From: Aquificaceae bacterium
GTDB lineage: Bacteria; Aquificota; Aquificia; Aquificales; Aquificaceae
Direction of reading: 5' to 3'
DNA: 64,000 nt
NCBI GenBank assembly: GCA_027079305.1
Contig: JALWVU010000045.1
Coordinates: forward strand, 1-64,000
Below, one piece after another: positions 7,556 through 9,992 of the stretch. How positions within the stretch are numbered: the stretch's first letter is position 1; each line of letters begins with the position of its first letter. The notes under the pieces are model-generated. The model did no database searches and was not told where the DNA came from. It saw only the letters and a program-made list of their open reading frames with translations. Made by a program: the position numbers and the translations under genes.

Positions 7556-8251
7556 ATGTTCTTCTACGATCCAAACAATCCCGAAAGGCTCTGGATACAT
7601 TTCCACGGCTTTGCCACGAACGTGTGGGGGTCCAAGATAGAGTTCGCGAGAAGCTACTTCAGAAGAACCAAAGCCTTTTCCTTCTACGCCATGGACATGG
7701 ACTACGAGAAGCACACCACCACGGAGGTCCTGGAGGTTTTGGAAGTCTTGGTCCTCGGCTTTTCAGAAAAATACGCTGAGATAGTCCTGTGCGGTAGCTC
7801 CCACGGGGCCTACATAGCGACAAACTACGTTAGGTTCAAAGAGCTGGGGAACGTGAAGAAGCTCCTCCTTCTGGCCCCCTCCTTCAGGACCCTCGACCTG
7901 GTCATAAGAGAGCTGGGGGAAGATAGGGTAAGAGGCTGGCTCGAGGGTAAGGAGGTTCTCAGGTTCAAGGAGGAGGATGTGGAGATAGAGGTGAGGGAGG
8001 ACTTTGCAAAGGATATCCTCGAGAGGGGATACGAGATAATAAGGGATGGGGAGGTTCACTTCCCGAAGGATCCTCCCGTAGAGATCTTCTTGGTCCACGG
8101 GACGGGGGACGAGATAGTTCCCGTAGAGGACTCCAGGCTCTTCGCGAGCAAGGTCAGGGTCTCGGAGTTCATAGAGGTGGAGGACGACCACCAGCTCTCG
8201 GAGAGCTTCGGAAGGGTCCTAACGGATCTCGTTGAGAAAGGCAAGCTCTGA
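7556..8251 (+). CDS. YqiA-like alpha/beta hydrolase (putative esterase)
   Basis: 231 aa. The oxyanion strand is HFHGFATNVWGSK near residue 16, and the nucleophile elbow GSSHG (Ser about residue 82) is in LCGSSHGAYIA. A late acid/histidine pair is visible in LVHGTGDEIVP and EDDHQLSES. This is the UPF0227/YqiA type of small cytoplasmic alpha/beta hydrolase. The substrate is not known. A TATAAT box at 7540-7545 sits 10 bases before the ATG with no Shine-Dalgarno. ttuA begins 16 bp downstream on the same strand. Confidence 0.75.
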   Translation: MFFYDPNNPERLWIHFHGFATNVWGSKIEFARSYFRRTKAFSFYAMDMDYEKHTTTEVLEVLEVLVLGFSEKYAEIVLCGSSHGAYIATNYVRFKELGNVKKLLLLAPSFRTLDLVIRELGEDRVRGWLEGKEVLRFKEEDVEIEVREDFAKDILERGYEIIRDGEVHFPKDPPVEIFLVHGTGDEIVPVEDSRLFASKVRVSEFIEVEDDHQLSESFGRVLTDLVEKGKL

Positions 8252-8267
8252 GTTTAGATTACTCTCT

Positions 8268-9188
8268 ATGAAGTGCAGAATCTGCGGTAAAAAGCCAATC
8301 ATCTACATGCCCCAGCACAGGCTCGCCCTCTGCAGGGAGGACTTCCTCTCCTGGTTCGAACGCTACACCGAGAGGACCATTAAAGAGTTCAGGATGTTCA
8401 CACGCGAAGACAGGATCCTCGTCGCCATATCCGGAGGCAAGGACAGCCTCGCCCTCTGGCACGTTCTCAGGAAGCTCGGATACTCAGCGGACGGCTTTTA
8501 CCTGCACCTGGGCATAGGTGAGTACTCGGAGCGCTCGAGGGAGAAGGTGGAGAAGTTTGCCCAGAAGTTGGGAGCCAAGGCGATAATATTGGATCTGAGG
8601 GAGGAGCTCGCGGGCATACCCGAGCTCAAGGACCTCACCTCGAGGGAGGCCTGTTCGGTATGCGGTCTTGTAAAGAGATACAACTTCAACAAGGTTGCCA
8701 GGGAACAGGACTACAGCGTTGTCGCGACGGGACACAACCTCGACGACGAGGCGAGCTCCCTACTTGCGAACGTAATCAACTGGAACATCAAGTATCTGGG
8801 CAGGAAGTATCCCGTCCTCGAAGAAGAAGAAGGTTTTGTAAGAAAGGTAAAGCCCTTCTGCAAGTTCACAGAGAAGGAAACCGCCCTCTATGCGCTCCTC
8901 AACAACATAGACTTCATAGAGGAGGAGTGCCCCTTCTCGGAGGATGCGAGCTCCATCTTCTACAAGGAGATCCTCAACAGCATAGAGGAGAGGTTCCCCG
9001 GAACTAAGCTGAGGTTCTACTTAGAGTATCTGAGGAAGATCTATCCCAGGTTCAGGGAGAAGGAGAAGAGGGATCTTCAGCCCTGTAAGATATGCGGTGA
9101 GCCGAGCCCCTCGGAGGTGTGTCCCGTTTGCAGGCTGAGGGAGAGGGTAGTAAACTTAAAAGGAACGGGGCGTAGCTCAACTGGATAG
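8268..9188 (+). CDS. ttuA: tRNA 5-methyluridine(54) 2-sulfurtransferase
   Basis: 306 aa. Thiolates T54 in the T-loop of tRNA, a thermostabilising modification known from Thermus. An N-terminal zinc finger (CRICG, then LALCRED) precedes the PP-loop SGGKDS (residues 55-60). The three cysteines that hold the iron-sulfur cluster in the family are at 119, 122 and 201, and the second ATP motif is GHNLDDE (135-141). A C-terminal zinc finger (CKICG and CPVC) follows. The last seven codons and the TAG stop (9186-9188) lie inside tRNA-Arg, so the frame has no stop before the tRNA gene. A TtuB-like carrier is encoded at 54863-55063. Confidence 0.93.
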   Translation: MKCRICGKKPIIYMPQHRLALCREDFLSWFERYTERTIKEFRMFTREDRILVAISGGKDSLALWHVLRKLGYSADGFYLHLGIGEYSERSREKVEKFAQKLGAKAIILDLREELAGIPELKDLTSREACSVCGLVKRYNFNKVAREQDYSVVATGHNLDDEASSLLANVINWNIKYLGRKYPVLEEEEGFVRKVKPFCKFTEKETALYALLNNIDFIEEECPFSEDASSIFYKEILNSIEERFPGTKLRFYLEYLRKIYPRFREKEKRDLQPCKICGEPSPSEVCPVCRLRERVVNLKGTGRSSTG

Positions 9189-9239
9189 AGCGCGGGACTA
9201 CGGATCCCGAGGTTGTGGGTTCGACTCCCACCGCCCCGG
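9166..9239 (+). tRNA. tRNA-Arg (anticodon ACG)
   Basis: 74 nt, complete cloverleaf. The acceptor stem CGGGGCG/CGCCCCG is seven perfect pairs and the D-arm is GCTC/GAGC. The anticodon stem CGGGA/TCCCG encloses loop CTACGGA with anticodon ACG. The T-arm GTGGG/CCCAC has loop TTCGACT. The discriminator is G and no CCA is encoded. It overlaps the last 23 bases of ttuA and ends 11 bases before the smpB ATG, so it must be cut out of a message also carrying those genes or have an internal promoter. Confidence 0.97.
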
Positions 9240-9250
9240 CTTTAAAGGAA

Positions 9251-9727
9251 ATGTCCAAGAAAAGCGATAGGTTAATCCCCATAGCGGACAACAAGGAGGC
9301 CAAGGCCAGATTCGAGATAATAGAGAGATACGAGGCGGGTATAGTCCTCGAAGGCTCGGAGGTGAAGTCCCTAAGGAACAAGGGGAACGTCTCCTTTAAG
9401 GACAGCTTCGTAAGGATAGAAAGCGGTGAGGCCTGGCTCCACAACCTCTACATAGCCCCATACAGATTTGCCACAATAAAGCCCCCGGATCCGCTCAGGA
9501 AAAGGAAGCTCCTCCTTCACAAGAGGGAGATCATGAGGCTCTTCGGGAAATCCCAGGAGAAGGGATATACCATAATCCCCACCAGACTCTACTGGAAGAA
9601 CGGGAAGGTTAAGGTGGAGATAGCCCTCGCCAAAGGAAAGAAGCTCCACGACAGGCGCCAGGAGCTCAAGGAAAGGGCCATCAGAAGAGAATTGGAAAGG
9701 GAGTTCAAGGGGAGGATAAGGCTTTAA
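9251..9727 (+). CDS. smpB: SsrA-binding protein
   Basis: 158 aa. Partner of tmRNA in trans-translation, which rescues ribosomes stalled on messages without a stop codon. Conserved features are NKEAKARFEIIERYEAGIVL, GSEVKSLR, EAWLHNLYIAPY and the C-terminal basic tail rich in Lys/Arg (GKKLHDRRQELKER). The start at 9251 follows AAAGGAA and clears the tRNA. An upstream in-frame ATG at 9215 lies within the tRNA and is rejected. It is probably cotranscribed with ttuA and tRNA-Arg. No tmRNA gene was seen in the window. Confidence 0.96.
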   Translation: MSKKSDRLIPIADNKEAKARFEIIERYEAGIVLEGSEVKSLRNKGNVSFKDSFVRIESGEAWLHNLYIAPYRFATIKPPDPLRKRKLLLHKREIMRLFGKSQEKGYTIIPTRLYWKNGKVKVEIALAKGKKLHDRRQELKERAIRRELEREFKGRIRL

Positions 9728-9758: not shown

Positions 9759-9854
9759 CTTTCCAACTCCACACGGCAGATTAGGAACTCCGCTGGATAC
9801 TACACGGTCAACGATGGAGTAACGACTTTCAACTCCACACGGCACATTAGGAAC
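9759..9854 (-). CRISPR. Degenerate CRISPR mini-array (two repeats, one 37-nt spacer)
   Basis: Two near-identical units sit at 9759-9788 (30 nt) and 9826-9854 (29 nt). They share CTTTC, AACTCCACACGGCA and ATTAGGAAC, and differ by one inserted C and one C/G change. A 37-nt non-repetitive spacer (9789-9825) separates them. Read on the minus strand the repeats end in GTTGAAAG or close to it, like the 3' end of many CRISPR repeats that becomes the crRNA 5' handle. The more regular copy lies next to the AT-rich stretch at about 9935-9965, which could be a leader. The left copy is the degenerate one. No cas gene is present in the window. Confidence 0.7.
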
Positions 9855-9992
9855 CATTTTGACGCACCTTAAATAGCTCTCCCCCTATTCACTTGCCAAG
9901 GAGCCGGCAGGCCCTTCCGTCCTGCTAAAATTCAGATAAATAATATAATGAATTTTTTAGTGCTCGGAGTTTCTCGCAACGCCCCCGCCTGA

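Follow-up and report, generated by a model that had tools for sequence, protein, structure and literature searches.

Protein-coding genes that end at a UAG inside a downstream tRNA gene in Aquificaceae

We asked why ttuA, the gene for the tRNA U54 2-thiolation enzyme, ends inside the tRNA gene that follows it in an Aquificaceae genome, and whether processing of that tRNA could leave the ttuA message without a stop codon. The locus lies in a 64,000-nt stretch of contig JALWVU010000045.1 (assembly GCA_027079305.1, our genome G000), referred to here as the window; the features given by window coordinates are all on the forward strand. The sequence, the list of open reading frames, ARAGORN and Rfam confirm what a sequence-only reading had claimed, namely that ttuA (8271..9188, 305 aa) is open from its ATG at 8271, or from an alternative in-frame TTG at 8232, to a TAG at 9186-9188, with no earlier stop before tRNA-Arg(ACG). 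This tRNA (9166..9239, without an encoded CCA) is the only ACG copy in the tRNA survey of the genome, which, like the other surveys used here, was run on stretches of contigs. ARAGORN and Rfam agree on its boundaries except for one extra base in ARAGORN. The overlap (9166..9188) takes in the 5' strand of the acceptor stem, nt 8-9 and the greater part of the D arm, and the first 23 bases of the tRNA double as ttuA codons (the remainder of a split Thr codon, then Gly-Arg-Ser-Ser-Thr-Gly-stop). The tRNA carries one TAG at nt 8-10 (9173..9175), which is out of the ttuA frame here, and another at nt 21-23 in the D loop/stem (9186..9188), which is the ttuA stop. A 5' cut at 9166 would remove six whole codons and the stop; the seven codons counted earlier are reached only if the split Thr codon ACG (9165-9167) is included. 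When folded at 37°C, tRNA-Arg was able to form within a longer RNA; energy models are unreliable at 80°C, and folding at that temperature gave nothing decisive.

Upstream of ttuA, a gene for a UPF0227-like alpha/beta hydrolase (7556..8251) ends 19 bases 5' of the ttuA ATG. Downstream, smpB (9251..9727, 158 aa) starts 11 bases after the tRNA, as had been read before (discriminator base at 9239, ATG at 9251). A purine run, AAAGGA, ends one base short of this ATG, so that smpB has no well-spaced Shine-Dalgarno sequence; such a sequence is absent from the ttuA start as well (8240-8276 and 9230-9256 were inspected), and an SD-like 4-mer precedes the first ATG in only 12 of the 43 long ORFs of the window, with a crude choice of starts. 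Processing of tRNA-Arg at its 3' end would give smpB an 11-nt leader. Beyond smpB, at about 9760-9860, two copies of a ~29-base stretch, CTTTC(C)AACTCCACACGGCA(G/C)ATTAGGAAC, lie ~40 bases apart and resemble a tiny or decayed CRISPR repeat pair.

The TtuA protein matches Pfam TtuA_LIM_N (PF22082) and PP-loop (PF01171), both above cut-off, which gives it an N-terminal LIM-type zinc ribbon and a PP-loop domain; C-terminal CxxC pairs were read from its sequence. Against the NCBIfam TtuA equivalog, a Pyrococcus-type model, it scores 304 bits, under the cut-off of 450. Judged from these matches, the domain-family assignment of TtuA stands, and we make no equivalog claim. SmpB scores above both the NCBIfam and the Pfam cut-offs, and a tmRNA was found in the genome. 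The genome also encodes one HARP (PF08745, 237 bits), whereas a search of it for RNase P RNA with RF00010 gave no match. Among the relatives, RNase P RNA gave no match over cut-off in any tested genome of Aquificaceae or of family f2, and it was present in five of the five f3 genomes tested. The ‘RNase P-type’ 5' processing that had been proposed would here mean the protein-only kind: with HARP present and RNase P RNA not found, HARP would be the enzyme that makes the 5' cut. An ORF that we named by eye as RNA-ligase-like is convergent with the HARP gene and overlaps its 3' end (L137:409-1506 and 1477-2073). In having one HARP gene with such a neighbour and no RNase P RNA, the genome is like the HARP genomes of Aquificaceae described previously (PMC12153264).

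The sequence-only reading had suggested comparing orthologous loci, and had named relatives in which ttuA stops before the tRNA as evidence against itself. When ttuA orthologs were searched for in Aquificaceae relatives, tRNA-Arg was directly 3' of ttuA in 13 genomes (G000 included), and in the remaining relatives ttuA was located elsewhere. Overlap was found in 10 of the 13, spread over two genera: ttuA stops at nt 21-23 of the tRNA in five (G000, G004, G009, G016 and G023) and at nt 8-10 in five (G001, G003, G005, G008 and G030). Relatives of the opposite kind were found too, since ttuA stops before the tRNA in the other three, with a TGA about two dozen bases upstream in G010 and a TAA 12 bases upstream in G018 and G027. 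The linker after the last cysteine of ttuA is 34, 35 or 41 nt long, lengths that lead into one or other of the two frames with a stop; none of the genomes examined uses the remaining frame, which is open along the whole of tRNA-Arg. Mapped onto the ttuA tree, in which support for the deep forks is poor, stopping at nt 21-23 requires four changes and stopping at nt 8-10 requires two. An in-frame stop is missing from 27-41% of shuffled linkers of the same length and composition, and the overlap at this single locus is not more than chance expects. What lifts it above chance is recurrence: in ten genomes, in both stop-bearing frames, and with the same geometry at other tRNAs. This comparison marks the overlap as a lineage trait that two genera have retained or regained; it does not come from an assembly error, and it is not essential. 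We considered whether the extra C-terminal tail has a function specific to TtuA and ruled this out, as its sequence is free to vary, and many relatives in which ttuA and tRNA-Arg are unlinked have a shorter one.

A TAG occupies nt 8-10 in 30 of the 43 tRNAs of the genome, so that any ORF entering a tRNA in that frame stops there. Two further long same-strand ORFs in the survey do so, namely ispE at tRNA-Gln(UUG) and the fumarase beta gene at tRNA-Val(CAC) (names given to both genes on reading their translations rather than by a family scan). The fumarase beta overlap (L238:2190-2747, contig C33) also occurs in G014 (L265) and G009 (L267). Because a second fumarase-beta copy lies on contig C52 and the C33 copy is closest to that of G014, C33 is probably a contaminant, and we count this pair only as a case of the G009/G014 group. 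The survey of G006 gave one overlap in 43 tRNAs (ispE), and that of G078, whose family has RNase P RNA, gave one among 36 tRNAs, an ORF named by eye as endonuclease IV-like that runs into tRNA-Arg(CCG) (L222). HARP as the enabling cause of the overlaps is ruled out, since relatives with RNase P RNA overlap too (G078, and G076 at ispE). We took long ORFs that cross tRNA-Ser(CGA) and other tRNAs with a TATAAT box to be open by chance.

The pair ispE/tRNA-Gln is a stronger case than ttuA/tRNA-Arg. In 27 of the 29 Aquificaceae in which the two genes are linked, the ispE stop is the UAG at nt 8-10 of tRNA-Gln(UUG) (linked loci: L051:698-1510 on contig C1 of the genome itself; L138-L157, L162-L164, L249, L250 and L252-L254 in relatives). 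The linker in these 27 cases is 26 or 23 nt long, a three-base length change that kept the ispE frame. In the other two genomes, G024 (L156) and G031 (L155), around positions 1501-1590 of these loci, the linker is 22 nt, ispE translates the whole of tRNA-Gln and stops at nt 87, and a housekeeping tRNA is thus fully nested in a protein ORF. Downstream of tRNA-Gln, prs follows at most of the ispE loci. The relatives checked from f2, and five of the six from f3, have an ispE stop that lies upstream of tRNA-Gln by anything from a few to 17 bases; the sixth f3 genome, G076, has the overlap. A perfect -10 box is absent from all 29 linked tRNA-Gln genes, and a five-of-six match occurs at a single one of them, whereas five or six matches were found, with a slightly wider spacing allowed, at all four unlinked tRNA-Gln genes of Aquificaceae (Fisher P about 1e-4, the species not being independent). 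Moreover, tRNA-Gln(UUG) is the only tRNA-Gln in the surveys of two genomes, G000 and G006. This pattern suggests that ispE transcripts, once processed, are probably the only source of tRNA-Gln, the other possibility being a promoter that lies farther 5' within ispE. If tRNA-Gln does come only from ispE transcripts, each released tRNA should cost one ispE stop codon. A more far-reaching reading is that throughout Aquificaceae a sole tRNA-Gln without a recognisable promoter would be freed only by cutting the stop off the ispE mRNA. One transcript would then give, as alternatives, two essential products, the tRNA and an isoprenoid enzyme, in an arrangement that is family-wide and maintained with the reading frame; ttuA/tRNA-Arg would be a milder instance, and tmRNA-SmpB rescue would be routinely needed. 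We offer this reading tentatively, as a possibility that we rather doubt in its full extent.

For the overlap as a whole, the explanation that we favour, and consider probable, is that ttuA takes as its stop a UAG which belongs to the tRNA in any case, and that any non-stop message would be a tolerated by-product of tight gene packing and not part of a TtuA/SmpB circuit. With ttuA flush against a single-copy tRNA gene and lacking its own stop, the inherent UAG of the tRNA would serve instead. The tRNA, with smpB behind it, would be transcribed partly from an internal promoter and partly by read-through from ttuA, and HARP, a protein-only RNase P, would cut the read-through transcripts at the tRNA 5' end. 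Each spanning RNA would then have two alternative fates, as a ttuA mRNA that keeps its stop, or as a tRNA together with a ttuA fragment that lacks one. As ribosomes that reach the tRNA-borne stop would prevent the 5' half of the tRNA from folding, translation and tRNA release may compete on one RNA. The non-stop fragment would be decayed, and ribosomes stalled on it would be cleared by tmRNA-SmpB. The earlier proposal that a spanning transcript cut at the tRNA 5' end would give a non-stop ttuA message is thus a reasonable one that the anatomy of the locus supports.

How much of this message arises would depend on where transcription of the tRNA starts. Most tRNAs of the genome have a TATAAT-like box about 9-14 nt upstream. 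A candidate internal promoter in ttuA (9128..9156) consists of TTGCAG (9128-9133), a 17-nt spacer and TAAACT (9151-9156), and lies 9 nt 5' of tRNA-Arg; the score of its TAAACT, 3.06, is equalled by 4.6% of random window positions. The promoter-like TTGAGA-17-TAGATT (8232..8260) just 5' of the ttuA ATG is about what chance would give in that region. A -10-like hexamer (TAAACT, TAAAAT, TAAAAA or TATAAT) is present 9-14 nt upstream of tRNA-Arg in all 13 ttuA-linked genomes, and in the ten overlapping ones it stays at 9-10 nt despite varying encoded residues, although the 13 genomes are related and hence not independent. Genomes that have tRNA-Arg-smpB but no ttuA upstream of it carry a strong or near -10 box there (TATAAT, GATAAT or TATATT). 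These hexamers speak against the obligatory co-transcription of ttuA and the tRNA that had been assumed before, and a weak promoter may be embedded in the last ttuA codons, giving tRNA-Arg a promoter of its own. Codons read by tRNA-Arg(ACG) (CGT, CGC and CGA) make up 0.65% of the codons in the long ORFs of the window (Gln codons, 1.8%), and with so low a demand a low-output production of these tRNAs might suffice. This is only a possible reason, since the tRNAs of other rare amino acids have normal promoters.

Taken further, the same signals would fit a purely passive overlap with separate transcripts, in which the promoter inside ttuA makes tRNA-Arg-smpB, ttuA mRNA decays or ends past its stop, and almost no processed non-stop message arises. 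The conserved hexamers, their resemblance in position to the boxes of most other tRNAs of the genome and the rarity of the codons, for which a weak promoter could suffice, all favour such an arrangement; clean promoters and clean mRNA 3' ends would indeed leave hardly any non-stop message. However, no terminator-like site was found on the forward strand between ttuA and tRNA-Arg, so ttuA transcription should also enter the tRNA, and the hexamer of this genome is weak enough that co-transcription could even dominate. We therefore regard the fully passive overlap as unlikely, though it deserves some weight, and on the sequence signals tRNA-Arg likely comes from both sources, the internal promoter and ttuA read-through.

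The sequence-only reading had gone in the opposite direction and raised a dedicated feedback loop, in which tRNA maturation shuts off TtuA via the non-stop message while the linked smpB supplies the rescue factor, so that tRNA processing, thiolation and ribosome rescue are co-tuned. The adjacency of ttuA, tRNA-Arg and smpB in G000, G001, G003, G004, G005, G008 and G009 would suit such a loop, as would the tmRNA, the m5s2U54 found in tRNA of A. aeolicus (PMC6313347) and the equivalent alternative-expression model proposed for selB/tRNA-Sec (PMC8124441). Yet the parts separate in relatives: tRNA-Arg-smpB occurs without ttuA upstream in G002, G006, G013 and G015, ttuA-tRNA-Arg occurs without smpB downstream in G018, G023, G027 and G030, and ttuA has its own stop in some. 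A three-gene functional module is thus not what evolution kept. The same overlap at ispE, fumarase beta and endonuclease IV, and the conserved internal promoter candidate, also speak against a coupling specific to TtuA and SmpB. That this tRNA carries the T-loop targeted by TtuA had been offered in support, but has no force as an argument because this T-loop is near-universal in tRNAs. Overall, the feedback loop is very improbable. An artefact (a misassembly, a misplaced tRNA boundary, or a true ttuA stop lost to a sequencing slip) might be suspected in an assembly of 75 contigs with 2.7% estimated contamination, but is refuted in practice and retains hardly any probability, because independent relatives share the junction base for base (G004, G016) or its geometry in the other frame, and ARAGORN and Rfam agree on the tRNA boundaries.

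A comparable arrangement was described by Mukai (2021, PMC8124441), in which the tRNA-Sec gene (selC) is nested in, or partly overlaps, the selB ORF, with the selB stop inside tRNA-Sec in Dyella/Luteibacter; processing was hypothesised there to leave the upstream mRNA without a stop and the downstream ORF without a leader. As at selB/selC, the protein frame of ttuA runs stop-free into a same-strand tRNA gene, and the stop lies inside the tRNA (ttuA at nt 21-23 or 8-10, ispE at nt 8-10 in 27 genomes) or beyond it (ispE in two), with ispE/tRNA-Gln of G024 and G031 as the fully nested form. The present cases differ from selB/selC in several respects. They involve housekeeping elongator tRNAs (Arg, Gln, Val), and the frame ends at a UAG native to the tRNA, at nt 8-10 or 21-23 instead of nt 46-48. 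In Aquificaceae, 5' processing is by HARP. The upstream genes, except arguably ttuA, are functionally unrelated to the tRNA. The target of TtuA is T54 in tRNAs generally, and IspE and fumarase have no tRNA role. The tRNA punctuation of animal mitochondria, as cited in passages of PMC8124441 and PMC10941002, is similar in that coding ends overlap tRNAs in a compact genome whose messages are freed by cuts at tRNA ends. It differs in that the uncut transcript here contains a complete in-frame UAG. Mitochondrial stops are often completed by polyadenylation. In the HARP section of the review PMC10941002, Aquifex tRNAs are mentioned in tRNA clusters and rRNA operons, and not as overlapping mRNA coding ends. 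The non-stop mechanism is thus already published as a hypothesis for another pair, selB/tRNA-Sec (PMC8124441). Beyond selB, we found no bacterial stop-in-tRNA case in the literature searched, which is not proof of absence, and within that literature two things seem to be new, namely that several housekeeping genes stop at the UAG of tRNA nt 8-10 and that one such pair, ispE/tRNA-Gln, is family-wide.

The weight of the finding rests mainly on this generalisation and less on ttuA. tRNAs carry ready-made stops, such as the UAG at nt 8-10, which let genes lose their own. If processing follows the anatomy, each released tRNA costs a protein message its stop codon, a linkage that the ispE/tRNA-Gln pair makes testable by ordinary RNA sequencing in cultured Aquificaceae. 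Should this be true, tRNA supply, mRNA output and ribosome rescue would be physically linked across a bacterial family, and these genomes would contain a natural, conserved source of non-stop mRNA and, with it, a reason for dependence on trans-translation.
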